A stretch of 64,000 bases of DNA, taken from the NCBI GenBank assembly GCA_001899635.1, contig MKVQ01000026.1, positions 1-64,000 of the forward strand. The letters are read 5' to 3'. Source of the stretch: Myxococcales bacterium 68-20 (GTDB lineage: Bacteria > Myxococcota_A > Polyangia > Polyangiales > Polyangiaceae). The notes beneath the pieces were generated by a model that was not told where the DNA came from, made no database searches, and saw only the letters and a list, made by a program, of their open reading frames with translations. Of the stretch, positions 1,486 to 26,105 are shown in pieces. Position 1 is the first letter of the stretch; each line of letters starts with the position of its first letter. Made by a program: the position numbers and the translations under genes.

Positions 1486-2865
1486 TCAGCGCGCCTTTTG
1501 ACTCGAAGCGTCGGCCACTCGGTCGCGGACCCAGCCGCACGCCCTCTTGCTCGCCCCGAAGAGCTCGTGGGCGACGTGTGCCGGGCCCCCGTTCCTCACG
1601 CTGTCGACCTTGTGATCGATGAGCCACATCGCCTTCTGCCAGGTCGAGCCCCGTCCGGTCGCCGACTTCGGAAGGAAGCCGAGCATGCCTCCGACGCGGG
1701 CGAGGGCCTCGAGCGTGTAGCCCATCTGCGCCTCCGTGTGCGCTGCCGTCACGTTGCAGCGCAGACGCTCGGTGCCCTCCGGGACGCCGGGATGGACGAA
1801 GGGCATCATGATGACGCCGGCACCGTGAAAGAGGTACGCGGCGGCCTTCATCGTCAGGGTCTCGTCGCGCAGCATGATCGGTGTGATGTTCGTGGTGCTC
1901 TCCCCGAGGTCAGCGCCCAACTCGCGGAGTCCGGAACGAAAGTACTCCGTGTTCCAGTTGAGACGCCGTCGATAGGTGGGGTCCTTCTCGATGAAGTCGA
2001 GCGCGGCGAGCGCAGCTTCGACCTGTGCGAGCGGTAGTGAAGCCGAGAACATGAACGGCCGCGCGGTGAGCTTCATGTAGTCGATGAGCGTCTCGTCCGC
2101 GACGACGAACCCGCCGACGGTGCCGAAGCTCTTGGAGAACGTGCCGACGAGGAGATCGATCTCGTGGAGCACACCGTGCAGCTCGGCGACGCCGCGGCCG
2201 GTCGGGCCGAGCGTGCCGAGACCGTGAGCGTCATCGACCATGATCGCCGCGCCGTAGCGCTTGCAGAGCGTGACGAAATCGGCGAGCGGCGCGAGGTCGC
2301 CGTCGACGCTGTAGAGCCCCTCGACGACGACCAGCTTCTTCGCGTTCTCTGCAGTGCTCAAGGCTCGCTCGAGCGACGAGGGCTTGTTATGGCCGAACCA
2401 GCGCACCTCGAGGTCGGGATGCAGTCCCTGAGCGAGCATCACACCATCGATGATGCTGGCGTGACTCAATTTGTCGAGGATGACGGAGGTCTCGCCGTCG
2501 AGGAACGAAGCCAGCGTACCGACGAGCGATTGATAGCCCGTCGTGAAAACCGCGCACGCGTCTTTGCGGAGCCACGCCGCGAGCCGCTCTTCGAGCAGCC
2601 GGTGCCGTATGCTCGTCGCCTGCGGCCGCGCGCTCCCGAGACCGGTGCCATACGCCGTCGTTCCTCGGTTGGCAGCTCGGATCAGCGTCGGATGTTGCGA
2701 CAAGCCGAGGTAGTCGTTCGACGTGAAGTTGAGGTAGCTGCCGTGGCCGACCTTCACGCGCGGGCCGAAGTTCTCGAACGGGCGAAAGAAGGGGAAGGCC
2801 TTCTGCCGCTTCACTTCGTCGATCCGGGCGTGCATGGAAGTCGTTTTGTCGTGAAGCCAGGACAC
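1486..2865 (-). CDS. PLP-dependent alpha-oxoamine synthase (SPT/BioF-like)
   Basis: A 459-residue fold-type I PLP enzyme of the alpha-oxoamine synthase family, which condenses an amino acid with an acyl thioester and loses CO2 to give an alpha-amino ketone. Visible motifs are the substrate/PLP loop FTSNDYLGLS, the VDDAHGLG motif (about residues 210-217) and the Schiff-base lysine in TFSKSFG (about K245). GTG at 2865 is preferred because GAGGAG lies seven bases upstream; an internal ATG at 2835 lacks such a site. It is the last gene of the polyketide operon, 20 bases after the extended SDR gene. That pairing resembles bacterial serine palmitoyltransferase with a ketone reductase in sphingolipid synthesis. 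No biotin genes are present, so a BioF role is unlikely. Amino acid and acyl donor are unknown; the operon's acyl-ACP is the likely donor. Confidence 0.88.
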   Translation of the reverse strand: MSWLHDKTTSMHARIDEVKRQKAFPFFRPFENFGPRVKVGHGSYLNFTSNDYLGLSQHPTLIRAANRGTTAYGTGLGSARPQATSIRHRLLEERLAAWLRKDACAVFTTGYQSLVGTLASFLDGETSVILDKLSHASIIDGVMLAQGLHPDLEVRWFGHNKPSSLERALSTAENAKKLVVVEGLYSVDGDLAPLADFVTLCKRYGAAIMVDDAHGLGTLGPTGRGVAELHGVLHEIDLLVGTFSKSFGTVGGFVVADETLIDYMKLTARPFMFSASLPLAQVEAALAALDFIEKDPTYRRRLNWNTEYFRSGLRELGADLGESTTNITPIMLRDETLTMKAAAYLFHGAGVIMMPFVHPGVPEGTERLRCNVTAAHTEAQMGYTLEALARVGGMLGFLPKSATGRGSTWQKAMWLIDHKVDSVRNGGPAHVAHELFGASKRACGWVRDRVADASSQKAR

Positions 2866-2885
2866 CTGAGAACTCCTCGCGCGAT

Positions 2886-3860
2886 TCAGGAAGGAATGCG
2901 ACCGCTCTCGATGAGCCAATCGAGCGTGGGCAGGAGCGCATCGCGGGCGGGCCGGAATTTCACCCCGAGCTCCGAGCCGGCTTTCCAGCTACTCGTGAAC
3001 CAGTACTTCGTGGCATAGGGGATGACGCGCGGATTGAACGGGAGCGGCAAACGGAACTTCAATCCGGCCTTCGCGAGAGGCCGGATCAGCCCGTTTGGAA
3101 TCTTGATCACCCGGGTCCTTTTTCCGAGGAGCTTCAGGGTCAGCGAGGCCAGCTCGTAGACCGAGAGATTGTCGCCGCTGAGAATGTAGCGCTCGCCGGA
3201 GCGGCCTTTCAGCATGGCCTGCACGACTCCGTTGGCGACATCGTCGATGAATGCCACCGACATGCCGCCGTCGCAAACCAGCACCGGTGACGACGTCGCG
3301 AAGTCGATCAAGTTGCACGACGTGATGAGGCTGGTGTCTTCCGGGCCGTACACCTCGCCGGGGTTCACGATCGTGACGTGGACTCCGTCGTTGGCGGCGC
3401 GGAGGCACAGCGCCTCCGCCTCCAGCTTGGAGCGCGAGTACGTGAGGCCATCGAGCGGAGCCGTGAAGGCGCTCGACTCGTCGAAGGTCACCGGGCGATC
3501 CGAGGCGTTGATCGCGAGCGTGCTCGAGACGAACACCACGCGAGTGCCGGGGCGAGCGCTAGCGGCGGCGAGGACGTTGCGGGTCCCGCCGAGCACGACC
3601 TCGTCCATCAATGGAGAGTCGATCTGGTCCCACGCCGACAGGCTCGCGAGGTGGATCACGGCTTCGCAGCCGTCCATTCCGGCAGCGATCGACATGGGAT
3701 CGCGTACGTCGCCTAGCGCGCGCTCGTACCGATACCCTGCGAGCCGGTCGATGTTGCTCGACTTTCTGAGCAGGCACCGCACTTCATGCCCCTCTCGGAC
3801 GAGCGTGCGCACCACGCATGAACCGATGAAGCCGTTGCCGCCCGTGACGAAGACCTTCAT
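2886..3860 (-). CDS. Extended SDR, NAD-dependent epimerase/dehydratase family
   Basis: A 324-residue extended short-chain dehydrogenase. It has an N-terminal Rossmann motif TGGNGFIGS, an HLAS segment, the catalytic YSRSK (YxxxK) and NPGEVYGP, in the pattern of dihydroflavonol-reductase/sterol-dehydrogenase-like SDRs. Relatives act on ketones of lipids and secondary metabolites; in Caulobacter-type ceramide synthesis an epimerase-family SDR reduces the keto sphingoid intermediate. Here it lies directly upstream of the oxoamine synthase gene. I infer that it reduces the amino ketone formed by that enzyme. It starts at ATG 3860, 54 bases after the preceding reductase gene. The fold is sure; the substrate is inferred from position only. 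Confidence 0.82.
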   Translation of the reverse strand: MKVFVTGGNGFIGSCVVRTLVREGHEVRCLLRKSSNIDRLAGYRYERALGDVRDPMSIAAGMDGCEAVIHLASLSAWDQIDSPLMDEVVLGGTRNVLAAASARPGTRVVFVSSTLAINASDRPVTFDESSAFTAPLDGLTYSRSKLEAEALCLRAANDGVHVTIVNPGEVYGPEDTSLITSCNLIDFATSSPVLVCDGGMSVAFIDDVANGVVQAMLKGRSGERYILSGDNLSVYELASLTLKLLGKRTRVIKIPNGLIRPLAKAGLKFRLPLPFNPRVIPYATKYWFTSSWKAGSELGVKFRPARDALLPTLDWLIESGRIPS

Positions 3861-3914
3861 CGAACGTACGCCTCACACGTCATGTTCAACCCAACCGAGT
3901 AGCTCTGCATGGCG

Positions 3915-4718
3915 CTACAGCCCGAGGTTCTTCCGCTCGCTGTAGAGTCGCTGCAGGTTGTCCGAGAACGTGGTGCCGCGGTCGACCGTGATCACTTGAC
4001 CGCGCATGGCGTCGAAGAGGCCGCTGCACAGCGCCAACGTCGCGTCCGCGACCTCTTCGGGCCTGATGAAATGCGAGTCGGGCACGTAGCGCTTGGCGAA
4101 CTCGGTGAGCTCGGGCCCGAACGTGGCGTCGAACGAGGCGGTGCGGACGGCGCGCGAGCGGACGACGTTGATTCGGCAATCCTCGTCGCGAAGCCGGTAC
4201 GTGAGGTAGCGGCAGAACGTCTCCATCACCGCCTTCGACATCGCCACGAAGTCGTAGCCGACCGAGAAGTGGTCCGGCCCCGTCGACGACATCCCCACGA
4301 CGTAGCGCGGGTAGCGGCCGAGCCCTTCTTTGATCCGATGAAGGTACTCGAACATCGGCCAGGCGCTGTAGTCGATGCTCTTGGCGAGCCCGCGCGCCGA
4401 ATAGTCTTCGAGCGCTTTGATCACGAGCGCACCGGAGACGTTGCTGACGAGCGCCTCGACGCGATCACCTGCGGCCTTGATTGCGTCAACGACCGCGGCC
4501 GTGTCGCTGGCGTTTGCCGCGTCGGCCTGGAGGATCATCGGCGGCGGCGCGCCGGCCGCTTCGAATCGACTGCGCACCTCGCCTTCGTCGGTAGAGCCCC
4601 AGCGGTAGGTGAGTACGCACCGGGCGCCGCGCCGTCCGAAGGCGAGCGCAGTGGCGAGGCCGAGTCCCATCGTCCCGCCCGTGACGAGGACGATCTTGCC
4701 TCCGTAGTCCGCGATCAT
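3915..4718 (-). CDS. Enoyl reductase-like SDR (FabL/FabI type), copy 2
   Basis: A 267-residue SDR with the cofactor motif TGGTMGLG. Its active site has Tyr and Lys separated by six residues (YDFVAMSK) rather than the YxxxK of ketoreductases. The Y-x6-K spacing marks enoyl-ACP reductases such as FabI and FabL, and the C-terminal MRGQVITVD resembles FabL. The expected role is reduction of the enoyl-ACP double bond formed by the dehydratase or by the ECH enzymes. Its ATG overlaps the ACP stop in an ATGA, implying translational coupling. The copy at 5114-5917 has the same length and aligns end to end, so this is a duplicated pair that may differ in substrate, for instance straight-chain versus beta-branched enoyls. 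Confidence 0.8.
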   Translation of the reverse strand: MIADYGGKIVLVTGGTMGLGLATALAFGRRGARCVLTYRWGSTDEGEVRSRFEAAGAPPPMILQADAANASDTAAVVDAIKAAGDRVEALVSNVSGALVIKALEDYSARGLAKSIDYSAWPMFEYLHRIKEGLGRYPRYVVGMSSTGPDHFSVGYDFVAMSKAVMETFCRYLTYRLRDEDCRINVVRSRAVRTASFDATFGPELTEFAKRYVPDSHFIRPEEVADATLALCSGLFDAMRGQVITVDRGTTFSDNLQRLYSERKNLGL

Positions 4719-4990
4719 CCGGCGCCGTTCGGTGCCGCGGCCTGCTTCTCGTTCCACACCCGGAGGAGCACCGTAGCGAGCCCGTCGATGTTCGTGATCG
4801 TCGCGAGCTCCGCGCGCGGCACCTTGACCTTGAGCTCGCGCATCGACGCCGATACGACCTCGACGATGTCGAGGCTGTTGGCGCCGTAGTCCTTCATCGA
4901 CTTTTTGACGTCGACCGTCTCGGGAGTCAGCTCGTCGATCGAGCGGACGAGGTGCTTGATGATCACGCTGGTGACCTGTTCGTGGGTCAT
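4715..4990 (-). CDS. Discrete acyl carrier protein with GANS motif
   Basis: A 91-residue acidic carrier protein. The phosphopantetheine attachment serine is S39 in YGANSLDIVEVV; most fatty-acid ACPs have DSL there. GANS is typical of the donor ACPs of HCS cassettes (AcpK/CurB type), which carry the acetyl group added in beta-branching. That link is from memory of the family. The start is ATG at 4990, where the ACP fold begins, after an AAGGAAGG-like site; a frame open further upstream adds only basic residues. It is the only carrier protein seen in the operon, so it may act as donor, acceptor or both. No phosphopantetheinyl transferase is encoded nearby. Confidence 0.88.
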   Translation of the reverse strand: MTHEQVTSVIIKHLVRSIDELTPETVDVKKSMKDYGANSLDIVEVVSASMRELKVKVPRAELATITNIDGLATVLLRVWNEKQAAAPNGAG

Positions 4991-5113
4991 GGTTCGGTCC
5001 TTCCTTCGCTTTCTTCGCAAAAGCGCACCCAAGCTGCGCCGATCATGAAGTCAGCCCCCCTTCGAACCCCGCCGCGCTGACGGGAGTTTCGTATTGCTCT
5101 GCCAGAGATGCGC

Positions 5114-5917
5114 TCACGCGAATAGCGTCGAGCGCTCCGCGAACATCCGCATGAGATTGTCGGAGAACGACGCGCCGTGATCGAGCGTGACCACCTGCCC
5201 GCTCACGCCGTCCATGAGGCCGCTGCATAGCCCGAGGATCGCGTTCGCCGTCTCGTCGGGGGACACCCAGGGATGCGTCTTGTCGAATCGGTCGACGAAC
5301 CCCTCGAACTCGTCGCCCATCGTCGCCCGAAGTGAGTCGGTCTTGACGAACCGGGGGCGGAGGACGTTGATCCGAATGTCCTCCTCGAAGAGGCGGTGAT
5401 TGAGGTACTTGCAGAACGTCTCGAGCACCGCCTTCGACGCCGCGATGAAGTCGTAGTTGGTATGGAAGTGGTCCGGCCCACCGGACGAAAGCCCAATCAC
5501 GTAGCGCGGGTACTTACCGAACACATCCTTGATGCGACGGGTGTATTCGATCATCGGCCAGGCGCTGTACTCGATGCTCTTGAAGAGCGAGCGCAGCGCG
5601 TAGTCGTCGAGATCTTTGACGACGTGGCCGAAGCCGACGTTGGAGATGAAGGCTTCGACGTGCCCCCACCGCGCTTTCATGTCCGCCAGCAAGCGCTGCG
5701 TATCCTCGTTGTCGGCGACGTCGGCCTCGACGATGTGCGGCTCGGGTGCGCCGGCCGCAGCGAACGCGGCGCGGATCTCCGCTTCATCGGCGCTGCCCCA
5801 CTTGCTCGTGAGCGTGCACTCTGCGCCCTGCCGGCCAAAGGCGAGCCCCGTCGCGAGGCCGATCCCCTTCGTCCCGCCGGTGATCAGAACAGCTTTGCCA
5901 CGATAGTCATTGACCAT
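5114..5917 (-). CDS. Enoyl reductase-like SDR (FabL/FabI type), copy 1
   Basis: A 267-residue SDR with nucleotide motif TGGTKGIG and the enoyl-reductase active site spacing YDFIAASK (Y-x6-K), preceded by the SSGGPDHF segment shared with its paralogue. The C-terminus SGQVVTLDHGASFSDN closes the Rossmann fold. It is presumed to reduce enoyl-ACP in the polyketide line. It matches the 3915-4718 protein in length and motif order. The ATG at 5917 lies inside the end of the ECH2 gene, giving an 11-base overlap. A 123-base gap follows before the ACP gene, the longest inside the operon. Confidence 0.8.
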   Translation of the reverse strand: MVNDYRGKAVLITGGTKGIGLATGLAFGRQGAECTLTSKWGSADEAEIRAAFAAAGAPEPHIVEADVADNEDTQRLLADMKARWGHVEAFISNVGFGHVVKDLDDYALRSLFKSIEYSAWPMIEYTRRIKDVFGKYPRYVIGLSSGGPDHFHTNYDFIAASKAVLETFCKYLNHRLFEEDIRINVLRPRFVKTDSLRATMGDEFEGFVDRFDKTHPWVSPDETANAILGLCSGLMDGVSGQVVTLDHGASFSDNLMRMFAERSTLFA

Positions 5918-6659
5918 AGTTGTCCTTGATCCGCTGGCGGATGTCTCCCTCCCCGAAGCTGACGGCGTGCATGAGCGTCTCGGTGGCGCGTGTCTCTTCG
6001 AAGGCACGCCGCTTGTCGGCAGAGAGCACGCGCTTCAACGCCTCGAGGGCGACCCGCGGCTTGTCGGCGACCCGCTCGGCGATCTCGTAGGCCTTCGACC
6101 GGACGTCGGCTCGCGGCAGGATGTGGTTGAAGCCGCTCCGTCCTTCGAAGTCGGCGCCCCGGCGGCGCTCTCCGCTGTAGAGCAGCTCGTGTGCGATCGC
6201 AGGCGAGAGCACGTTCTCGAGGAGGCGCGTCGAGCCCATCCCCGGCGTGAAGCCCATGTTCATGAAGCTGCATCCGTATCGACTCTCGCGCGCGATGATC
6301 GAGATGTCGGCGCACAGGCCGAGCGCGAGACCGCCACCGATCGCGTGTCCTTCCATCGCCGCGATCGTCGGGACCGGCATGTCGAGGAGCGCTTTGGAGA
6401 GGAGGTGATCGCCAGGCACGACCTCGCCGGCGACGACCTTCTCGAGCACGTCGAGGTTCGCGCCAGCACAGAAGACGTCCGAGAGGCCGAACAGCACGAC
6501 GACGCGGCTGTCCGCCATGCGCCCGACCGCGAGAAGCGCGGCGAGGAGCTCCTCGACGAACGGTCCGGAGAGCGCGTTTCGCCCGTACACGTCGCACATC
6601 CCGATGGTGACGATCCCGCTCGCTACGCTGACGTCGACGCGACCTTGGCTCTCGCTCAT
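5907..6659 (-). CDS. ECH2, PksI/CurF-type enoyl-CoA hydratase-fold decarboxylase
   Basis: A 250-residue crotonase-fold protein. Oxyanion-hole segments are FCAGANLD (about 63-70) and EGHAIGGG (about 103-110), followed by FMNMGFTPGMG (about 132-142). The last segment, the later ILPRAEV-like ILPRADV, and the C-terminal RIKDNYG match the ECH2 (PksI) subgroup of beta-branching cassettes. ECH2 decarboxylates the methylglutaconyl-ACP made by ECH1 to leave a beta-methyl enoyl-ACP. The start overlaps the ECH1 stop in an ATGA. The order HCS, ECH1, ECH2 is the same as pksG-pksH-pksI. A fatty-acid oxidation hydratase is a less likely alternative because of these neighbours. Confidence 0.85.
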   Translation of the reverse strand: MSESQGRVDVSVASGIVTIGMCDVYGRNALSGPFVEELLAALLAVGRMADSRVVVLFGLSDVFCAGANLDVLEKVVAGEVVPGDHLLSKALLDMPVPTIAAMEGHAIGGGLALGLCADISIIARESRYGCSFMNMGFTPGMGSTRLLENVLSPAIAHELLYSGERRRGADFEGRSGFNHILPRADVRSKAYEIAERVADKPRVALEALKRVLSADKRRAFEETRATETLMHAVSFGEGDIRQRIKDNYGQ

Positions 6660-7423
6660 GCGAGCTCTCCCGACCAACCGACGTCGCCGGCCTCGAACGC
6701 AGAGATTCGTGCACGCACCGCGGGCGTCGCAAGCGCACGCAACGTCTCCGCCGCCCCCCGCTCGATGGCGTCTTCGAGCTCCGATCGCGACGCCCCGGAC
6801 GAGAGGCGCTTCAACCGGCCGACGGCGCCCGACTCGCCTCGTGCGACGAGGCGAACCCAGCGCTTGATGGTCCCGTCGAGGTCGCCTTCGGGCGCGAGGG
6901 CGTCGACGAGGCCGAGGGCGTGCGCTTCCGCGGCGGAGTACGACGTACCGCACAGCGCCATCAGCTTCGCCTTCTGGACCAGAACGCGCTCGACGACGAG
7001 CGGGAAGATCGCAGCCGGCGTGAGGCCGAAGAGCACCTCGGAGAGCGCGAACGACGAGCGCGGTGTCGCGAGCACGACGTCGCACGCAGCTGCCACGCCG
7101 ACGCCACCCGCGAGCGCTTCGCCATCGACGACGGCGAGCACGGGACATGAGGCGAACCGGATCGCAACGAGGCAACGGCAGAAGTCCGCCAGTGCTCTCT
7201 TCTCGTCCTCCCCGTTGGAGCTCGGGAGGAGGCGCATACCACGACAGAAGACGCCGGGGGCGCCGCGCAGCAACACGACCCGTCCGTCGGCCTCGCCGTC
7301 GGACGTCACCGTCGCGATCGCGGCGCGGAAGCGAGACACGCTTTCAGCGTCGAGCGCGGATGGCACCTGAACCAAGATCGACTCCACGCCCTCAGCTCCA
7401 CTCGTAGTGACGGTAGTAGCCAT
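6656..7423 (-). CDS. ECH1, PksH-type enoyl-CoA hydratase-fold dehydratase
   Basis: A 255-residue crotonase-fold protein with FCRGM (about 59-63), DGEALAGGVG (about 100-109) and SEVLFGLTPA (about 128-137). These resemble the FCTGMDF and SELLFGLFPA segments of PksH. ECH1 dehydrates the HMG-like ACP adduct formed by HCS. The start is ATG at 7423, inside the 3' end of the HCS gene (32-base overlap), and the stop overlaps the ECH2 ATG by four bases. Assignment to ECH1 rather than a general hydratase rests on these motifs and on the gene order. Confidence 0.83.
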   Translation of the reverse strand: MATTVTTSGAEGVESILVQVPSALDAESVSRFRAAIATVTSDGEADGRVVLLRGAPGVFCRGMRLLPSSNGEDEKRALADFCRCLVAIRFASCPVLAVVDGEALAGGVGVAAACDVVLATPRSSFALSEVLFGLTPAAIFPLVVERVLVQKAKLMALCGTSYSAAEAHALGLVDALAPEGDLDGTIKRWVRLVARGESGAVGRLKRLSSGASRSELEDAIERGAAETLRALATPAVRARISAFEAGDVGWSGELA

Positions 7424-8633
7424 CGACTCGCTGGAGGACGAGCCGCCGCTTGCCGGCGTAGAGCTCTTCGTACCAGTGGGCGGCACAGCCGCGTCGAGGC
7501 ACGACATCGCGGGCCGCGGTGGCCTCGTCGCGCTCACGTTCGATCGCCTCGTATTCGGCGACGGAGATCGGTCGCCGGGCGTCACACAACGTCTGCAGCC
7601 CAGCGGCCTCGGCGACGGCTTTCGCTTTCGCGCCGATCCGCGCGCTGTAGAACTCGGCGCAGGAGCCGGATCCGTAAGCGAAGATGCCGACGCGTTCGCC
7701 GGAGACGAGATCCTCGGCGGTCTCCACGAGCCCAAGGAGAGCGAGGAACGTGCTCGAGCCGTACGTGCCGCCGATCTGCCGCGTGTAGTGGAGCGACGGC
7801 CGAACCTTGCGCGCCCAGTGCGCGCGTACGTCCGCCCTCGAGGTGATCGCGGTGTATTCTTGCAAGAGCGCCTTGTGCGCGCGGAAGCTCATACCGCCGA
7901 ACGGCACGTGGTAGACGTTCCGCTGAAAGAAGGCGTCGAAGTCGACCTCGCCGACGACATCGACGTAGCGCGCGTACGCGCCAGCGAGCGCTTCGAGATA
8001 GGAGTAGAGGCTCGTTTCGCTGTTGCCGGTCTCGACGCGGGGCGTGGGACGGAAGACGTCGGTGACCTCGTTCGCGTAGACGCCGCTCTTGCCGAGCTCG
8101 AGCTCGAGGAAGTCCGGCTCGGGACTGCTCGACAAGAGCACGGCCGCCGCCCCCGCACCGCAGACGAACTCGTACGGCTCGCCCAGCGCGATCAGGCTCT
8201 GGTCGCTGTTGATGACGAGCGCCTTCGCGCCGCGAGGTGCCTGCCCGGAGGCGAGCCAGCTCGTCGCCATCTGCACGCCGGCCGTGCCGCTGTAGCAGGC
8301 GTGTTTGATCTCGAAGTTGCGACAGTGCGGCTGAATCCCGAGGTAGCGATGTACCCACGAGCTGATCGGCTTCTCCTGGTCCACGCTCGTCTCGGAGCCG
8401 ACGATCACGAGCTGGATGGCGGCGCGGTCTTCGTCCGTGAGCATCGGGGCGGCGGCGTTCACCGCCATCGTCACCGCGTCCTCCCACGGTGGGTTCACCG
8501 CACGGCGATCGACCATGAGGTTGTCATGGACATCGGCCGGGTCGTGGTCGCGCGCAGCGCACAGCGCGTCCATGTCGAGCGACAACGTGGTCGGGTAGAC
8601 GCGGAGCTTTTCGATGCCGACCCTTCGTGTCAC
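7392..8633 (-). CDS. HMG-CoA synthase-like beta-branching enzyme (HCS, PksG type)
   Basis: A 413-residue 3-hydroxy-3-methylglutaryl synthase. The full catalytic triad is visible: E81 in VGSETSVDQ, C113 in KHACYSGTAG and H242 in NVYHVPFGGMSF. In HCS cassettes this enzyme attacks the beta-keto group of an acyl-ACP with acetyl-ACP to install a carboxymethyl branch. The start is GTG at 8633, overlapping the FabG stop as GTGA, which gives the usual family length. A mevalonate-pathway HMG-CoA synthase is the main alternative. The adjoining ECH1 and ECH2 genes and the operonic ACP, KS, AT and reductases favour the polyketide role. Confidence 0.88.
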   Translation of the reverse strand: MTRRVGIEKLRVYPTTLSLDMDALCAARDHDPADVHDNLMVDRRAVNPPWEDAVTMAVNAAAPMLTDEDRAAIQLVIVGSETSVDQEKPISSWVHRYLGIQPHCRNFEIKHACYSGTAGVQMATSWLASGQAPRGAKALVINSDQSLIALGEPYEFVCGAGAAAVLLSSSPEPDFLELELGKSGVYANEVTDVFRPTPRVETGNSETSLYSYLEALAGAYARYVDVVGEVDFDAFFQRNVYHVPFGGMSFRAHKALLQEYTAITSRADVRAHWARKVRPSLHYTRQIGGTYGSSTFLALLGLVETAEDLVSGERVGIFAYGSGSCAEFYSARIGAKAKAVAEAAGLQTLCDARRPISVAEYEAIERERDEATAARDVVPRRGCAAHWYEELYAGKRRLVLQRVDGYYRHYEWS

Positions 8634-9370
8634 GGCGACCAATCCAGACCGCCGGTGACGTGGAGCGTCTGCCCATTGATGAAGCTCGCGCCGTCGGAAG
8701 CGAGGAACAGTACCGTGCTGGACATCTCTTCGAGCTCGCCCATACGACCGACCGGACAGAACGTGTTCCAGAAGTCCTTGTGCTTCTGAGACATCGTCTC
8801 GCGCGTCATGTCCGTCTCGAAGAAGCCGGGCACGACGACGTTGCTCGTGATGCCCTTCTTTCCGTATTCCTTCGCAAGACCGCCCGAGAGCCCGATCAGG
8901 CCCGCCTTGCTTGCGCCGTAGTTCACCTGCCCCGAGAGCCCCGTCTGCGCGATCGATGAGATGTGGATGAACCGTCCGCGGCCGTTGGCGAGGAACGTCG
9001 GCAGAAAGTGGCGGGAGACGTAGAACGCGCCGGAAAGATTCGTGTCGATGGCGAGCTTCCAATCCTCGTCCGACATCGAGACCGCGAGACCGTTCTGGTT
9101 GACCCCGGCGTTGCACACGACCACGTCGACGGTGTCGAAGTCGGCGAGGACTCGTTCGCCGACCTCATCGACCCTTTTCGAATCGCGCACGTCGAGCGCG
9201 TAGGCGCGCGCCACGCGAGCAGGGTCGATCGCGCGCGCCTTCTCGACGACCAAACTGGCCTCCTTCTCTGCCTTGACGTAGGTGAAGGCCACGTCGTGTC
9301 CGGCGCGGATCGCCGCTAGGACGATCGCTTCGCCGATGCCGCGCGAGCCACCGGTGACGAAGAAGATCAT
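8630..9370 (-). CDS. 3-ketoacyl-ACP reductase, FabG type
   Basis: A 246-residue classical SDR. It has TGGSRGIGE for NADPH binding, NAG at the expected position, HISSIA before the active site and YGASK (Y-x3-K) as catalytic pair. Its C-terminus has INGQTLHVTGG, as in FabG. It reduces beta-keto groups on the carrier protein. It follows the KS gene by seven bases and overlaps the HCS start by four, so expression should be coupled. The Y-x3-K spacing separates it clearly from the two Y-x6-K reductases further along. Confidence 0.9.
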   Translation of the reverse strand: MIFFVTGGSRGIGEAIVLAAIRAGHDVAFTYVKAEKEASLVVEKARAIDPARVARAYALDVRDSKRVDEVGERVLADFDTVDVVVCNAGVNQNGLAVSMSDEDWKLAIDTNLSGAFYVSRHFLPTFLANGRGRFIHISSIAQTGLSGQVNYGASKAGLIGLSGGLAKEYGKKGITSNVVVPGFFETDMTRETMSQKHKDFWNTFCPVGRMGELEEMSSTVLFLASDGASFINGQTLHVTGGLDWSP

Positions 9371-9377
9371 CGTGTCC

Positions 9378-10661
9378 TCAATCCTCGAAGCGCTTGAGCA
9401 AGGAAACGCAGTTGATGCCGCCGAAGCCGAATGAGTTCTTCATCAAGACGTTCACCCGCTGCTCGACCGCCTTGCCTCGACAGATGTCGAGATCGATCTC
9501 GGGATCGAGCTCGTCGACGTTGATCGAAGGATGGAGCACGCCGGCGTTCATCTGGAGGATCGCCGCGACCGACTCGACGCAGGGCGCGGCCCAGCACGTG
9601 TGCCCAAGCATCGACTTCGTCGCGTTGATCCGCAGCTTCTTCGCGTGGTCGCCGAAGACGCGCTTGATCGAACGGATCTCGGTGAGATCCCCGAGCGGCG
9701 TCGACGTTGCGTGAGCGCTCACGTAGTCGACCTGCTCGGGCCGAAGACCACACTGCCGGAGGAGCTTGGACATGAGCCGGAACTGGCCATCCTCCGACGG
9801 CTGCGGCAGATGGTTGGCGTCGGCGTTCGCCTCGACGCCCAGGACCTCGGCGTAGATGCGTGCGCCGCGCCTCTTTGCGCGCTCGAGGTTCTCCACGATC
9901 AGGGTCGCGCCGCCGTGCGCTGGCACGAACCCCTCACGCCGCGTGTCGAACGGCCGGCTCGCGCGCGCGGGCTCGTCGTTGAAGCTCTGATGCGTGATCG
10001 CGCCCATGAGCGCCATCGCGTGAAGGTCGACCGGCGAAAAATCGAGGACGGCACCGACGACGACCGCGACGTCGACGTCGTGGTAACGGATCTCGTCGAT
10101 CGCAGAGCGGAGCGCATTGTTGCCGCTCGCGCAGGCTCCTCCGACCGTATAGATCGGCCCCTTCGCTTGGAGCAGCTCGGAGACCGAGCCTGCGTGGTCG
10201 GTGTCGAGGCCGTGGAGCGAGAAGAGGTTGTCGATGAAATCGGGCTCCTCCTGGAACGCGATCCGAGTCTCGTACTGATAGTTCACGTTGATGTTGTGAC
10301 CGGCGACGATGGTGGCCACCTTCGTCTCGTCAGGCGGATCGACGAACAATCCCGCATCCAGAAAGCCGCGGGCCGCGAGGAGCAGTGAGAGCTGCGTCGA
10401 CCAGGGCGCGCGCGATAGGAGCTTCCGAAGGCGGCGAAACGTCTCGGCGGGGAGCCGGCCCTCGAGCGTCGCGACCGTGGCGGCGACGTCGTACGTCGAG
10501 AGGTCGGCGCCGACCTTCGGATAGATGCGCAACGTATCGAGCGTCTTCCAGCGGGTGATCGCGGAGCGGCCCGCGATCAGGTTCTTCAGGTATTCGTCCA
10601 GGTTGTCGCCGAGCGGCGTGTGAATCGACATCCCGGTGATGGCGATGCGGCTAGTCGACAA
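9378..10661 (-). CDS. Beta-ketoacyl-ACP synthase (FabF/KAS II-like)
   Basis: A 427-residue condensing enzyme with a complete Cys-His-His triad: C177 in GGACASGNNAL, H317 in SAHATSTP and H354 in MLGHTCWAAP. The SRPFDTRREGF segment is typical of FabF-like enzymes. It should extend the chain with malonyl-ACP. In standard HCS cassettes the dedicated decarboxylating KS has Ser in place of Cys; this one keeps Cys, so it is an extending KS or a dual-role enzyme. It overlaps the dehydratase gene by 11 bases. No chain-length-factor partner is present. Confidence 0.9.
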   Translation of the reverse strand: MSTSRIAITGMSIHTPLGDNLDEYLKNLIAGRSAITRWKTLDTLRIYPKVGADLSTYDVAATVATLEGRLPAETFRRLRKLLSRAPWSTQLSLLLAARGFLDAGLFVDPPDETKVATIVAGHNINVNYQYETRIAFQEEPDFIDNLFSLHGLDTDHAGSVSELLQAKGPIYTVGGACASGNNALRSAIDEIRYHDVDVAVVVGAVLDFSPVDLHAMALMGAITHQSFNDEPARASRPFDTRREGFVPAHGGATLIVENLERAKRRGARIYAEVLGVEANADANHLPQPSEDGQFRLMSKLLRQCGLRPEQVDYVSAHATSTPLGDLTEIRSIKRVFGDHAKKLRINATKSMLGHTCWAAPCVESVAAILQMNAGVLHPSINVDELDPEIDLDICRGKAVEQRVNVLMKNSFGFGGINCVSLLKRFED

Positions 10662-11184
10662 AGTAGACCTCGAGAACGGCGAGCGAACAGAGCGTCCCCT
10701 CCCGATGAGCCTGACCGGCCACCGTGCCGATGAAGCCGTCGTACGCGACGATGCGCGCTCCCAGGCTCAACTCGTCGCCGGGCAAGACCGGCGCGTTGAA
10801 GAGCGCGTGATGGACCTTGATGGCTCGGAGGCGCGCGGGCCTCGTACCCTGGTCGATCACGGTGGAGTTCCGCGAAACGAAGTGCGCCAGGCACAGACCG
10901 AGCTGCCCGATCGCCTCGATCTGGAGCACTCCGGGATAGACTGGGTCGTCGGGAAAGTGACCGGCGAACACGGGATCGTGCGGATCGATGCGGCGCCGAC
11001 CGAGGAGCGTGCGCGTCTCGAAATCGATCGCAGTGAGCGCGTCGACGAGAAGGAACGGCGGGCGATGGGGCAGAACTCGCTCGATCTCGGCGCGCCCATG
11101 TTCGAGCGGAATGAGCTGGGCGCCGTCGGCCAGCGGCGTGCGTCGGAGCTTCCGGACCAGCGCTTCGAGCTCGTCAGCTTGCAT
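10651..11184 (-). CDS. 3-hydroxyacyl-ACP dehydratase, FabZ/FabA hot-dog fold
   Basis: A 177-residue hot-dog protein. The active site FAGHFPDDPVYPGVLQIEA contains the His (H76) and Glu (E90) of FabZ-type dehydratases. It converts beta-hydroxyacyl-ACP to enoyl-ACP. The start is ATG at 11184, eleven bases inside the acyltransferase gene; a frame open further upstream belongs to the shadow of the acyltransferase. The N-terminal 35 residues are an extension relative to short FabZ proteins. The overlaps on both sides place it firmly in the operon. Confidence 0.85.
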   Translation of the reverse strand: MQADELEALVRKLRRTPLADGAQLIPLEHGRAEIERVLPHRPPFLLVDALTAIDFETRTLLGRRRIDPHDPVFAGHFPDDPVYPGVLQIEAIGQLGLCLAHFVSRNSTVIDQGTRPARLRAIKVHHALFNAPVLPGDELSLGARIVAYDGFIGTVAGQAHREGTLCSLAVLEVYFVD

Positions 11185-12130
11185 GACGAGCGGCCCGTTT
11201 GAAGAAGGTCTCCGGCAGGGCGCACACACCCGCGGCACGGTCGGTAGCGAAGCGCGCGCTCTTGCACCACGAGCGCTGGAGCAAGTCGAAGAGCACGGTG
11301 CGCGGCCCGACCTCGACGAACAGGGCGTCGGGCCACCGTGCCGTGACGAGCTCGATCGACTGGCGCCACAGCACTGGCCGGTGGACGTGCTCGGAGAGGA
11401 GGGCGACGATCTCGGCGGCAGACGGGCGTTCGAGGAGCTCGCCGCGCACGTTCGGGAAGTACGGCCGCGCCGGCGTTCGCCACGCGGCGCGCTCCAGCGC
11501 GGGCCGTAGCCGCGCCGCGACGGGAGCGAAACGCGCCGTGTGCATCGGGATCCGATGCTCGATGATGCGTCCTTGCACGAAGTGCTCGTCCTCGAGCAAG
11601 GCGAGAGCCGCGTCGACTGCAGCGCGCTCACCAGCCACGACGTGCTGGCTCGGCGAGTTGAGATTGGCTACGTCGATGAAGCCATGGGCCCGCGCGCGCT
11701 CCAGCACCTCCTCGAGCGCGCCCCGGCCGATCGGGAAGACGGCGGCCATGACACCCTCGGGGCCGGCGTCGTACGCCGCGCCGCGCGCGTCGACGAGACG
11801 AAGGCCCTCCTCGAAGGAGAGCGCACCGATGTGAACCAGATGGTTGTATTCGCCGAGGCTGAGCCCGAGCGAGATCGGAGCGTCGTCCACGGTGTCTTGC
11901 AACACGACGAGGTGGAGGTGGTTCACGAGGAACACGCCGACCTGCACGTCCCGATTGGTCGCGAAGCTGGACGGATTATCGGGGCTGTACCACGCCCGAA
12001 GATCACGACCGAGGAGGCTCGAAGCCTGCTCGACGATCGGCGCGGTGAGCGCGGGGGAGACCGCGATGATGCGCTCGAGCATCTCGGGATGTTTCGAGCT
12101 CTGGCCCGGAAACATGAAGACGGAGACCAT
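11174..12130 (-). CDS. Discrete malonyl-CoA:ACP acyltransferase-like (trans-AT)
   Basis: A 318-residue acyltransferase. It has the nucleophile motif GLSLGEY (S91; GHSLG in most relatives), the FMFPGQSS start, an arginine in DARGAAY (R116) and a conserved histidine in PMHTARF (about H197). It loads malonyl units onto the carrier protein, as in trans-AT systems or FabD. It is first in the 12-gene leftward operon. The start is ATG at 12130, where homology to the family begins. The 232 bases upstream, to the end of the Tat-exported enzyme gene, should hold the promoter, but I see no clear consensus there. Confidence 0.85.
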   Translation of the reverse strand: MVSVFMFPGQSSKHPEMLERIIAVSPALTAPIVEQASSLLGRDLRAWYSPDNPSSFATNRDVQVGVFLVNHLHLVVLQDTVDDAPISLGLSLGEYNHLVHIGALSFEEGLRLVDARGAAYDAGPEGVMAAVFPIGRGALEEVLERARAHGFIDVANLNSPSQHVVAGERAAVDAALALLEDEHFVQGRIIEHRIPMHTARFAPVAARLRPALERAAWRTPARPYFPNVRGELLERPSAAEIVALLSEHVHRPVLWRQSIELVTARWPDALFVEVGPRTVLFDLLQRSWCKSARFATDRAAGVCALPETFFKRAARHAS

Positions 12131-12362: not shown

Positions 12363-13409
12363 TCAGAGCTCCCGCAGGAGCCTTCCCGCACCTCGGAGGG
12401 AGCCGTCGAACCCGTTCTCTCGCAGCGCGTACCAGAACGTCACGGCGTTGATTCCCAAGATCGGGATCCCGACGACCGGCTCCAGCCTCTCGGATACCTG
12501 GGCGAGGCTCATGTTCGTGCCGCACTGAACGATCGCGTCGAGGCGATTCTCTCGCGTCGCCAGCACCTCCACGATCGCCTGCTCCTTCGCGGAGTCGGGG
12601 ACGTGAGCGATGTGGACCGCGTTCGCGCAGGCGAAGCCGAGGCTCGCGACGACGTCGAAGCCGAGATCACGAAACATCTGTGCTGCGTTCTCGTTGCCGA
12701 CTCGATCGAACGGCGTCAGGAGTCCGATCCGCTTGGCGCCGAACTTGTTCAGAGCAGCCGGCGCCGCGTCGTGCCACGTGGCCCATGAGACGCCGGACCA
12801 CGACTCCGCGTCGGCCATCACCGCCCGGATCTCGTCGATGCCGCGAATGATGTGCTCGAGGCTCATTCCCATGATCAGGTATTGAGGCTGCGCCAGCAGC
12901 GCCTGCTCGACCGCCGCCTTCAAGCCCCCGACGAATTGCCGCTTGTAAGCGAGCAAGTCGGATTCGGTGTCGAGCTGCGGCCGCGGCGTCGAGACGTTCG
13001 AAGTGTGGAGGCCGACCCCGTCCAGCGCGTGAGTGCCCTGATTGCCGAAGATGATGCTCCAGAGCTCGTGCTCCATGCTCGTGTTCGTTGCAGGAACGAG
13101 CAGGCCGAACTTCCTCCTGGAGCTTCGGACGTCGGGATAGCCGCGCGCCGGATCGATTCCGAACGAGCCGATCGCCTTTCCGTCGTGGATCACGCCAGGC
13201 GGCGCGATGGCCGGCATCGGAGCAGCGTTCACGTCCGGGATGCGGAGCCTTCTGCCGGACAGGCCTCCGGCGATCGTGAGTGACTCCGCGGACGCGGCCG
13301 TTGGCCGAGCCACGGAGCTGCCACCACCTCCGCGGGGCCCGGCGCAGCCAACGAGACCGGCCGCCAGCCCGGCGGAGACGCCCGCAAGAAACTCTCGTCG
13401 GGTGCTCAT
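12363..13409 (-). CDS. Tat-exported maleate isomerase/arylmalonate decarboxylase-like protein
   Basis: A 348-residue protein. The N-terminus MSTRREFLAGVSAG is a twin-arginine signal followed by a hydrophobic stretch and a Cys in LVGCAGP, so it is probably exported and perhaps lipid-anchored. The mature part is an Asp/Glu-racemase-superfamily enzyme of the maleate isomerase/arylmalonate decarboxylase branch: LLVPATNTSMEHE carries the first active-site region and IVQCGTNMSL the catalytic cysteine. Such enzymes are normally cytoplasmic, which makes the signal unusual. The ATG overlaps the DoxX stop (ATGA). The substrate cannot be told; the pairing with DoxX hints at an envelope redox or aromatic-acid context. 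Confidence 0.78.
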   Translation of the reverse strand: MSTRREFLAGVSAGLAAGLVGCAGPRGGGGSSVARPTAASAESLTIAGGLSGRRLRIPDVNAAPMPAIAPPGVIHDGKAIGSFGIDPARGYPDVRSSRRKFGLLVPATNTSMEHELWSIIFGNQGTHALDGVGLHTSNVSTPRPQLDTESDLLAYKRQFVGGLKAAVEQALLAQPQYLIMGMSLEHIIRGIDEIRAVMADAESWSGVSWATWHDAAPAALNKFGAKRIGLLTPFDRVGNENAAQMFRDLGFDVVASLGFACANAVHIAHVPDSAKEQAIVEVLATRENRLDAIVQCGTNMSLAQVSERLEPVVGIPILGINAVTFWYALRENGFDGSLRGAGRLLREL

Positions 13410-13834
13410 TGCTCGATGGGATTCGGTCGGGAGAGGGGGAGGACGAGCGAGCCCGGCCCGGTGAGGACGAGCGCCACGAGGACGATGGCGACCGTCAGCG
13501 GAAACTCGGCCCCCCCGTGCGCGACGTCGAAACCCTTGCGGGCGGAGGTGGCCGCCGCGACGGCCATCGTGAAGACGACCGGAGCCAGAGCGCGGAAGCC
13601 GCGGCCGGAGAGCAGAACGGCGGCCCCCCCGACCTCGCTCACCGCAGCAAGCAGGGCAGCCAGGGATGGAATCGGAATGTCGAGCCCCCCGAGGTACGAA
13701 GCGAACCCGGACAAGCCGCCTCCGTTGAACCACCCGAAGAGCTTCTGGCTGCCGTGAAAGAAGAGCGGGATCGCTGCAGCGCTCCGAAGCAAGAAGAGCG
13801 CAAGGTCACCGCGTGTGAAGGATCGGGAAAGCAT
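13406..13834 (-). CDS. DoxX-family membrane protein
   Basis: A 142-residue protein with about four membrane segments. It carries the DoxX signature near the N-terminus: a conserved arginine, then PLFFHGSQKLFGWFNGGG. The start is ATG at 13834, since a frame continuing upstream adds only hydrophilic residues not seen in the family. It is co-transcribed with the Tat-exported enzyme through an ATGA overlap and is divergent from the LysR gene. DoxX proteins are linked to quinone/thiosulfate redox or detoxification, but most have no proven role. Confidence 0.85.
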   Translation of the reverse strand: MLSRSFTRGDLALFLLRSAAAIPLFFHGSQKLFGWFNGGGLSGFASYLGGLDIPIPSLAALLAAVSEVGGAAVLLSGRGFRALAPVVFTMAVAAATSARKGFDVAHGGAEFPLTVAIVLVALVLTGPGSLVLPLSRPNPIEQ

Positions 13835-24617: not shown

Positions 24618-26105
24618 ATGCGAATCGCGATCATTTGCACTTACACACACCCGACGCGTCTGCATTCGAAGGAGCCATCCATCATGCAGTCCGCGGTGGG
24701 CGAGTTGCTTGCAGCCCTGTGCCCGGCGGACGCCGAGGTCGAAATTTTCAACGAGAAGGAAGCGGACATACCGCTCGAGCGACACTGGGACCTCGTCTTC
24801 TTCTCTTATCTCCATGCCTACTACGAGCATACGAAGGTGCTCTCGGCGATGTTTCGCGCGAGAGGCATGGTGACGGTCGCTGGGGGGCGCCACGCGAGCC
24901 ACTTCAGCGCGGACTGCGGCAAGTGGTTCGACTCGGTGATCGTGGGCGAGCCGGAGAGCAACGTCCCCGCGCTCATCGCCGACTTCCGGAGAAATGAGCT
25001 CAAGCCGCGCTACGCGTTGCCTCCGGCCTTCGATGCGGTCCCAGCGTATCGATACGACCTCGTCGACTTTTCGAAAAACCGGTATCGCCTTCCCGGGATC
25101 GAGGCGTCACGCGGCTGTCCGTTCACGTGCAACTTCTGCGTCCTCACCGGCTGGGAGAAGTACCGGTACCGGCCGGTTGCGGAGGTCACACGCGACATCC
25201 AGCAGAAGATGCGGTTCAACAAGAACGCATTCGGAGCTTTCGATGATGCCTTCATCTTCCTCGACAACAACCTGGGCGGCTCACCCAAGTACCTTCGAGA
25301 GCTCTGCGAAGCCCTCGTTCCCCTGAAGAAGACCTGGGGGTGTGCGCTCACCTGGAACGTCCTCCAGGACGCAGAGCTCTTGCAGCTGATGTCACGCGCG
25401 GGATGTCGGTACATCTATTCGGGACTCGAGTCGCTCGATCCGGAGTCAATCGCCTCCATGGGCAAGGGGCAAAACCGGTTGAAGGACACACGGAGGACGA
25501 TCCGCCGCGTCTACGAGTTGGGAATATTGATGAGCTCCGGGCTGATCGTCGGCTCGGACGGCGACACGGACGAATATCTCGAACGATTGCCCGAATACCT
25601 GGATGACCTGGGACCTAGCTGCGTCACCTTTCTCGGTATCGTATGCCCCTATCCGGAGACGCCGTTCTTCGAGACCGTAGTCCGGGAGGGGCGCCTTCTC
25701 CCGAACGCGATCTCCCGAGACTTCGACGGCTACACGCTCTGCCATCGACCCAAGCGGCTCGACGTCAGCGCGACCGTCGAACACTTCAAGCGCCTCTGCC
25801 GCCAGATCGGGTCGTTGAGGCGGCTCGCGAAGAACGCCTGGCCGCAGCTCTGGATGAGTAGGGCCCCGCGATACAAGGCAACGATTCTGACCTCTGCGCT
25901 CGAGTGTCGCTCGCTTCGGAATCCGCTCGCCAACCCGGAGCGCACGTTCATCGCAGGGAAGGATCCCGTCGAGACGTGGGACGCACAGCAGATGGTCAAG
26001 CTCGGTATTGCTCAGCAGCGCATCGAGGGGCTGCTCTCGGCCCAGGACAAGGCACTTCTTCGGCCTTCGCTCCGAAGGCCACGTGTCGCGGCCGCGGCGC
26101 CGTGA
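24618..26105 (+). CDS. Radical SAM protein with N-terminal cobalamin-binding-like domain
   Basis: A 495-residue protein. Residues 1-130 resemble the B12-binding Rossmann domain of class B radical SAM enzymes (MRIAIICTYTH, WDLVFFSYLHAYYEH, VTVAGGRHASHF, VGEPESNV). The [4Fe-4S] cluster motif is C167-x3-C171-x2-C174 in RGCPFTCNFC. A TIM-barrel core follows, with FDDAFIFLDNNLGG, RYIYSGLESLDPE and SSGLIVGSDGD. Such enzymes methylate or rearrange unactivated carbons in secondary metabolism and lipid or hopanoid modification. The next gene starts 11 bases after its stop and encodes an alpha/beta hydrolase. The substrate is unknown. Confidence 0.85.
   Translation: MRIAIICTYTHPTRLHSKEPSIMQSAVGELLAALCPADAEVEIFNEKEADIPLERHWDLVFFSYLHAYYEHTKVLSAMFRARGMVTVAGGRHASHFSADCGKWFDSVIVGEPESNVPALIADFRRNELKPRYALPPAFDAVPAYRYDLVDFSKNRYRLPGIEASRGCPFTCNFCVLTGWEKYRYRPVAEVTRDIQQKMRFNKNAFGAFDDAFIFLDNNLGGSPKYLRELCEALVPLKKTWGCALTWNVLQDAELLQLMSRAGCRYIYSGLESLDPESIASMGKGQNRLKDTRRTIRRVYELGILMSSGLIVGSDGDTDEYLERLPEYLDDLGPSCVTFLGIVCPYPETPFFETVVREGRLLPNAISRDFDGYTLCHRPKRLDVSATVEHFKRLCRQIGSLRRLAKNAWPQLWMSRAPRYKATILTSALECRSLRNPLANPERTFIAGKDPVETWDAQQMVKLGIAQQRIEGLLSAQDKALLRPSLRRPRVAAAAP

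Follow-up and report, generated by a model that had tools for sequence, protein, structure and literature searches.

Organization of the operon

The subject of this study is a cluster of twelve genes at the start of contig MKVQ01000026.1 (C26) in the 11.9 Mb genome of Myxococcales bacterium 68-20. The stretch analyzed, referred to as the window, comprised positions 1 to 64,000 of that contig. In family-level searches it grouped with the Polyangiaceae. The genes lie on the minus strand, from the ATG of the first at 12130 to the stop codon of the last at 1486. In this order they encode an acyltransferase (AT), a dehydratase (DH), a ketosynthase (KS), a ketoreductase (KR), a 3-hydroxy-3-methylglutaryl (HMG)-acyl carrier protein synthase-like enzyme (HCS), ECH1, ECH2, a probable enoyl reductase (ER1), an acyl carrier protein (ACP), a second enzyme of the ER type (ER2), an extended short-chain dehydrogenase/reductase (SDR) and an alpha-oxoamine synthase (AOS) (Table 1). 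The activities reside on separate open reading frames (ORFs), and the catalytic residues are conserved. A first-pass annotation had proposed a single leftward operon with these genes, and every one of them was confirmed in the order and on the strand given there.

The same annotation had described overlaps of 4 to 32 bases between the genes. ATGA overlaps were indeed found at the ACP/ER2 and ECH1/ECH2 junctions, and the largest well-supported overlap was that of 20 bases between HCS and ECH1. The overlap of ~32 bases between the SDR and AOS genes was not retained. The AOS start was best placed at GTG 2865 (VSWLHDKTT... compared with MSWLHDQTT... in relatives, e.g. locus L178), so that the two genes are 20 bases apart. 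Gaps of 123 and 54 bases were found at the ER1/ACP and ER2/SDR junctions, respectively.

Table 1. Genes of the operon and the adjoining regulator gene, with positions in the window
Feature	Position	Strand	Assignment and key residues
AT	11174..12130	-	discrete FabD/MdcH-like acyltransferase; GLSLGEY serine, Arg, His
DH	10651..11184	-	FabZ-like dehydratase; His/Glu retained
KS	9378..10661	-	FabF/PksF-related ketosynthase; Cys177-His317-His354 intact
KR	8630..9370	-	FabG-like ketoreductase; S139-Y151-K155
HCS	7392..8639	-	3-hydroxy-3-methylglutaryl-ACP synthase-like; Glu83-Cys115-His244
ECH1	6656..7411	-	PksH-like dehydratase; Glu at the Glu137 position, Arg at the Asp68 position
ECH2	5907..6659	-	PksI/CurF-type decarboxylase; catalytic His retained
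ER1	5114..5917	-	FabI/FabL-type SDR, Y157-x6-K164; probable enoyl reductase
ACP	4715..4990	-	AcpK/CurB-like donor-type carrier; Ser39 in GANSLD
ER2	3915..4718	-	second FabI/FabL-type SDR, Y155-x6-K162
Extended SDR	2886..3860	-	3beta-HSD/OleD/HpnA-like; proposed aminoketone reducer
AOS	1486..2865	-	PLP (pyridoxal phosphate)-dependent alpha-oxoamine synthase, SPT/BioF/KBL superfamily; Lys in GTFSKSFG
LuxR-type regulator	628-1458	convergent to operon	flanking gene

Distribution of the gene set

The gene set is widespread and not peculiar to this strain. An HCS at least 47% identical to that of the window was present in 12 of 379 Myxococcota genomes, the window's own included. When 84,980 species were scanned, 80 loci were obtained, about 60 of which carry the same gene set, called the cassette below. 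The carriers include cultured bacteria, namely Nannocystis, Plesiocystis pacifica, Enhygromyxa salina, Asticcacaulis aquaticus and Rubrivivax rivuli. Further carriers were metagenome-assembled genomes labelled Spirochaetota, Aminicenantes, Chlamydiota, FCPU426, Firestonebacteria, Nitrospinota and Acidobacteriota, their phylum labels being taken as given, and the cassette was also present in records labelled Pseudomonadota. A second arrangement with a single ER (KS-KR-HCS-ECH1-ECH2-ER-ACP-AOS-DH) was typical of the Spirochaetota/Aminicenantes branch. Since the same set is kept across many genera and phyla, its chance assembly was ruled out. The enzyme kinds are known individually; the combination was not found in the literature searched (MIBiG lay outside the search), in agreement with the first-pass annotation, which knew of no described cluster of this kind.

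One locus (L040, genome G198) at first appeared to be a cassette without AT, ECH1 and ECH2, and this was rejected, all three genes being found on another contig. Two arrangements differing from the cassette were also recorded. At L191 (G375 contig C159, 9021-19901, plus strand) the genes HCS-ECH1-KR-ECH2-ER-ACP-KS, with the KS Cys intact, immediately precede an SDR and a type I polyketide synthase (PKS). Its HCS is a deep-branching relative, and the arrangement fits a starter-making role. Two Nostocales loci (L099 and L103, Desmonostoc muscorum) carry an HCS of the broad clade of the free-standing lines, yet beside the KSs of modular PKSs.

Enzymes of beta-branching

An HCS cassette for beta-branching had been claimed for the operon, and this was borne out for three of its proteins: judged by their sequences, HCS, ECH2 and the ACP belong with the proteins of beta-branching. 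The window HCS has the Glu-Cys-His triad of CurD and PksG, and it matched both over the full length (262 and 234 bits, respectively), while the mevalonate enzymes (MvaS) scored at most 199 bits, with matches that broke off ~35 to 45 residues sooner. A tree of 100 HCS sequences placed the window enzyme in a 70-row clade (support 99) consisting of all 64 cassette members and six relatives without the full set. The sister of this clade was that of CurD/PksG, and the MvaS-like myxobacterial enzymes formed a separate clade with a support of 100.

ECH2 scored 147.6 bits with PksI and 143.5 bits with CurF, the next family reaching 95.5 bits. The equivalent of His230, which PksI requires (PMC7501309), was invariant in the 54 readable loci. 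ECH1 belongs to the crotonase family, and its best matches were weak (4nnq, 90 bits; PksH, 66 bits). In PksH, Glu137 is essential and Asp68 helpful (PMC7501309); the former position is retained, and the latter is Arg in the window and Asp in 48 of 57 relatives. The ACP scored 51 bits with the PRK07117 model compared with ~28 bits for the ACP models of fatty acid synthases (FAS). Its best solved match was CurB, and its nearest relations are the donor ACPs AcpK and CurB, though it scored below the cut-off of the AcpK model.

A CoA-linked route of the mevalonate or the leucine/isovaleryl type, run by HCS, ECH1 and ECH2 with the PKS-like genes as unrelated neighbors, would be in line with HCS being the only HMG-synthase-family (PF08540) protein in the whole genome. 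A myxobacterial HMG-CoA route to isovaleryl-CoA exists as well. Nevertheless, such a route is extremely improbable here: HCS and ECH2 group with beta-branching enzymes, a donor-type ACP lies inside the same operon and the gene set is conserved across phyla. The first-pass annotation had named grouping with mevalonate or leucine-degradation enzymes as one outcome that would refute it; in the tree and the scores no such grouping was seen. The HCS tree and the HCS and ECH2 scores thus ruled out mevalonate or leucine enzymes as the identity of HCS and ECH2.

Ketosynthase and chain-building enzymes

The KS of classical HCS cassettes serves solely to make the acetyl donor. In four such cassettes (L118, L121, L123 and L192) the KS Cys is replaced by Ser, whereas the window and every one of the 58 readable cassette loci have an intact Cys-His-His triad. 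A role as a mere PksF-type decarboxylase was excluded, since no readable locus has lost the Cys; the KS, having retained this residue, can condense. The best NCBIfam match was PRK07103 (358.8 bits; cut-off 445). In the KS tree, the cassette KSs formed one clade (support 98), which adjoined the Ser-type KSs (support 83) and stood apart from FabF.

The other chain-building enzymes were assigned as follows. AT matched Pfam PF00698 with 41 bits and TIGR03131/TIGR00128 with ~130 bits, and its S, R and H are invariant among the relatives. DH scored 64 bits with PF07977 and 90 bits, under the cut-off, with the FabZ model; the catalytic H was found in 48 and the E in all of 49 relatives. KR reached 235 bits with TIGR01830, has the Y-x3-K spacing and carries S-Y-K residues that are invariant in 60-62 loci. 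ER1 and ER2 scored 82.7 and 89 bits with the FabL model, both under its cut-off. Both have the FabI/FabL-type Y-x6-K spacing, with Y and K invariant in 53 loci. KR, DH and the ERs belong to the core in every phylum. With the AT, KS and ACP, they could in principle build a chain unaided.

No modular PKS was found in the window or in the core of the relatives' loci. The genome holds few modular KSs and no second HMG-synthase-family protein, which was counted in favor of a dedicated line with its own branching module. The earlier description of the line as free-standing was supported. Alternatively, the genes might form an ordinary HCS cassette that serves, in trans, a modular PKS encoded at another place in the genome, the AOS being incidental. 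HCS cassettes do work in trans on trans-AT PKSs (PMC7501309), and two large KS-bearing ORFs are present on contig C48. This explanation was considered very unlikely, as the KS lacks the Cys-to-Ser change of the decarboxylases in such cassettes, KR, DH, AT and the ERs are part of the set, and ~60 stand-alone loci, more than 40 of them with an AOS, have no adjoining modular PKS.

Oxoamine synthase and extended SDR

An SPT-like (serine palmitoyltransferase-like) terminal AOS had been claimed for the operon. The claim was supported as far as an AOS is a steady companion of the cassette: over 40 loci have one, and those AOSs formed one clade in the AOS tree. The enzyme at hand is not the usual cassette AOS. 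The window AOS lies outside that clade and pairs with a paralogue on contig C2 of the same genome (46% identity), and its relatives of 60-67% identity occur in five other Polyangiaceae genera. The tree, the C2 pairing and these relatives led to its rejection as an orthologue of the usual enzyme. By these comparisons it is a Polyangiaceae-specific, lineage-specific AOS. At L180, which belongs to one of these genera, an AOS of the window type stands divergently beside a full cassette; at L181, from another of them, AT and DH are its neighbors where the contig ends.

A sibling cassette, damaged by deletion, was found in the window's genome at C39:38355-42820 (L138 8355-12823, minus strand). It retains AT-DH-KS-ER-AOS, the KS stopping after 123 residues, and has lost KR, HCS, ECH1, ECH2 and ACP. 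Its AOS is an orthologue of the usual cassette AOS, which is thus still present in this genome. The lineage of the window has thus replaced one AOS by another instead of dispensing with it, a point in favor of the AOS step belonging to the function.

The locus of the C2 paralogue (C2:103900-111450, L136) and two further loci (L182 and L183) combine an AOS with KS genes, while an ACP and a FAAL-like AMP ligase are encoded on the opposite strand. AOSs of this C2 type, 41-47% identical to that of the window, made up most matches in the 33 of 79 Polyangiaceae genomes having one. This is a separate, uncharacterised AOS locus.

The best solved match of the window AOS was the SPT of S. multivorum (244 bits), followed by BioF and KBL (~215 bits) and cysteate-C-fatty acyltransferase (203 bits). 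The amino acid chosen by an AOS is not readable from its sequence, and with a cysteate enzyme among the solved relatives the branched chain might enter another lipid, such as a sulfonolipid-like compound made with cysteate or 1-deoxy bases made with alanine or glycine, in place of a serine-derived sphingolipid. The chance of this was judged to be small: SPT is the best solved match and the acyltransferase found near many cassettes is of a family known in curated SPT loci, although neither point is decisive.

The extended SDR scored 201 of 368 bits with HpnA, 127 bits with SdmB and 84 bits with OleD, all under the cut-offs, and its match to the SDRs of Spt loci was weak (32-45 bits). Similar SDRs occur near Nannocystaceae cassettes and beside the CerS-family gene on contig C20 described below. 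The protein, previously called an epimerase-type SDR, is more likely a ketone-reducing extended SDR (3beta-HSD/OleD/HpnA-like) than a sugar epimerase.

CerS-family acyltransferase

Some cassettes of Myxococcota, Aminicenantes, Chlamydiota and Spirochaetota have a gene of a GNAT-like family in their vicinity. The family matches, with E ~1e-113, the acyltransferase encoded in Caulobacteraceae loci that have an Spt above the curated cut-off. Ceramide formation in Caulobacter crescentus needs the N-acyltransferase CC_1154, encoded in the spt region (PMC11324152). From family and position, rather than from the Caulobacter sequence itself, the acyltransferase of the Caulobacteraceae loci and CC_1154 would be the same gene, and the GNAT-like proteins are referred to as the CerS family. 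Among the 32 cassette loci whose flanks were complete, 10 have a member nearby. The window's genome has a single CerS-family gene, in the region C20:115300-121700 (L139), where it lies beside an OleD-like SDR and a few kb from a BioF-like AOS.

These neighbors also bear on the length of the product. The cassette might make a short branched unit, isovaleryl- or 3-methylcrotonyl-ACP, which the AOS would turn into a small aminoketone serving as a signal or as a pyrrole or pyrazine precursor. PksH and PksI acting on HMG thioesters yield 3-methylcrotonyl in vitro (PMC7501309), L191 resembles a starter-making module in its position upstream of a type I PKS, and AOSs with short or odd substrates exist (CqsA and KBL families). 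We regard a short product as rather unlikely, however, because KS, KR, DH and a FabI/FabL-type ER are conserved in all lineages, beyond what one short unit needs, and both the nearby CerS-family genes and SPT as the best solved AOS match count against it.

Proposed pathway

It was proposed, with moderate confidence, that a dedicated free-standing FAS-like type II line with beta-branching feeds a methyl-branched acyl-ACP to an SPT-like AOS. Gene content, catalytic residues, phylogeny and conserved co-localization were observed; from them we infer all of the following reactions, along with the amino acid used, where the branch is placed and which lipid is made. AT would put malonate on the single ACP, and the KS would prime and extend the chain and probably also decarboxylate malonyl-ACP to the acetyl-ACP donor. 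In ordinary cycles, the beta carbon would be reduced by KR, DH and one ER. In at least one cycle, HCS would add acetyl-ACP to the beta-ketoacyl-ACP. Dehydration by ECH1, decarboxylation by ECH2 and saturation by the second ER would then leave a beta-methyl branch. Branching at the acetoacetyl stage would give an isovaleryl starter and an iso chain, while branching at a later stage would give an in-chain methyl group.

The AOS would then join the branched acyl-ACP to an amino acid, of which serine is the most probable, and so form a 3-keto long-chain base whose ketone the extended SDR may reduce. The use of acyl-ACP by Spt has been reported for Proteobacteria (PMC11324152). The CerS-family acyltransferase encoded on C20 could N-acylate the long-chain base. 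A sphingoid identity of the product appears likely from the sequences, and the product would be of the ceramide type.

Several observations weigh against this proposal. The window AOS scored under every curated cut-off and fell into no named family (Spt models: 311.6 of 640, 302.7 of 500 and 227.9 of 670 bits), and the tree did not settle its position next to SPT. ECH1 is weakly placed by sequence and carries Arg instead of Asp68. The operon has one ACP, whereas classical beta-branching uses separate donor and acceptor ACPs, and no lipid has been linked to any member of the cassette. No CerS-family gene occurs anywhere in the genomes of the cassette carriers Asticcacaulis aquaticus and Rubrivivax rivuli; therefore, the ceramide reading cannot hold for all members.

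Relation to known systems

The operon and the classical HCS cassettes, such as bacillaene pksF-G-H-I/acpK and curacin curB-C-D-E-F, have in common HCS, ECH1 and ECH2 in the pksG-H-I order, a donor-type ACP, a related free-standing KS and the same catalytic residues of HCS and ECH2. The operon differs in the Cys of its KS and adds its own AT, KR, DH, two FabI-like ERs and a terminal AOS. Classical cassettes work together with a modular PKS of their cluster, on whose tandem ACPs they act; the operon has no such partner. The myxobacterial MvaS shares the superfamily and the Glu-Cys-His triad with the window HCS, but belongs to a separate clade and lacks the C-terminal part common to CurD/PksG and the window enzyme.

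A polyketide line that leads to an AOS of the SPT type and is joined by an SDR acting on the ketone is likewise found in PfSgaAB(C) and in the fungal PKS and AOS systems of the fumonisin type. In Pseudomonas fluorescens MYb115, the PKS of PfSgaAB(C) feeds an SPT-type AOS, resulting in PKS-derived sphinganines (PMC12134224). That system has one iterative type I PKS and makes very long-chain sphinganines of C24-C28 (PMC12134224), whereas the window encodes separate proteins and a built-in beta-branching module.

The sphingolipid pathway of Caulobacter (AcpR, AasR, Spt, CerS and CerR; PMC11324152, PMC11087976) likewise combines an AOS of the SPT superfamily with a dedicated acyl-ACP and an extended SDR, and its CerS has family members adjoining many cassettes. 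In Caulobacter the acyl-ACP comes from the acyl-ACP synthetase AasR, while the line in the window is proposed to build its chain de novo on the ACP; unlike the Caulobacter Spt, the window AOS lies outside the curated Spt families. Since the operon has neither the Cys-to-Ser change of the KS nor the modular partner of classical cassettes, and does not reach the curated Spt cut-offs, it would work like both systems and be a member of neither.

HMG-synthase cassettes are known for introducing beta-branches as a decoration on giant modular PKSs. Here the same branching module lies inside a small FAS-like line and is coupled to a sphingolipid-type entry enzyme. The product may be a sphingolipid-like lipid made by a so far undescribed route; if so, the line would be an acetate-only route to branched long-chain bases, and a lipid class would be predicted for named strains. 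As a tentative and rather doubtful extension, the cassettes might make a widespread class of sphingolipid-like membrane lipids that receive their methyl branches from an HMG-synthase module in a dedicated type II line. The free-standing line with a condensing KS would then be the older organization, and modular PKSs would have obtained their HCS cassettes from it later, with the KS turned into a Cys-to-Ser decarboxylase, a testable idea on the origin of these cassettes.

Flanking genes

Upstream of AT, at a distance of ~230 bases, a minus-strand gene (12363-13733) encodes a twin-arginine/lipoprotein-like start fused to an arylmalonate-decarboxylase/EutA-like domain. Neither this gene nor the LuxR-type regulator recurs near the cassettes of the relatives. 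Farther away, at 24618-26105 on the plus strand, the window encodes a B12-binding radical SAM protein which, with scores below all curated cut-offs, belongs to the HpnJ/BchE superfamily.

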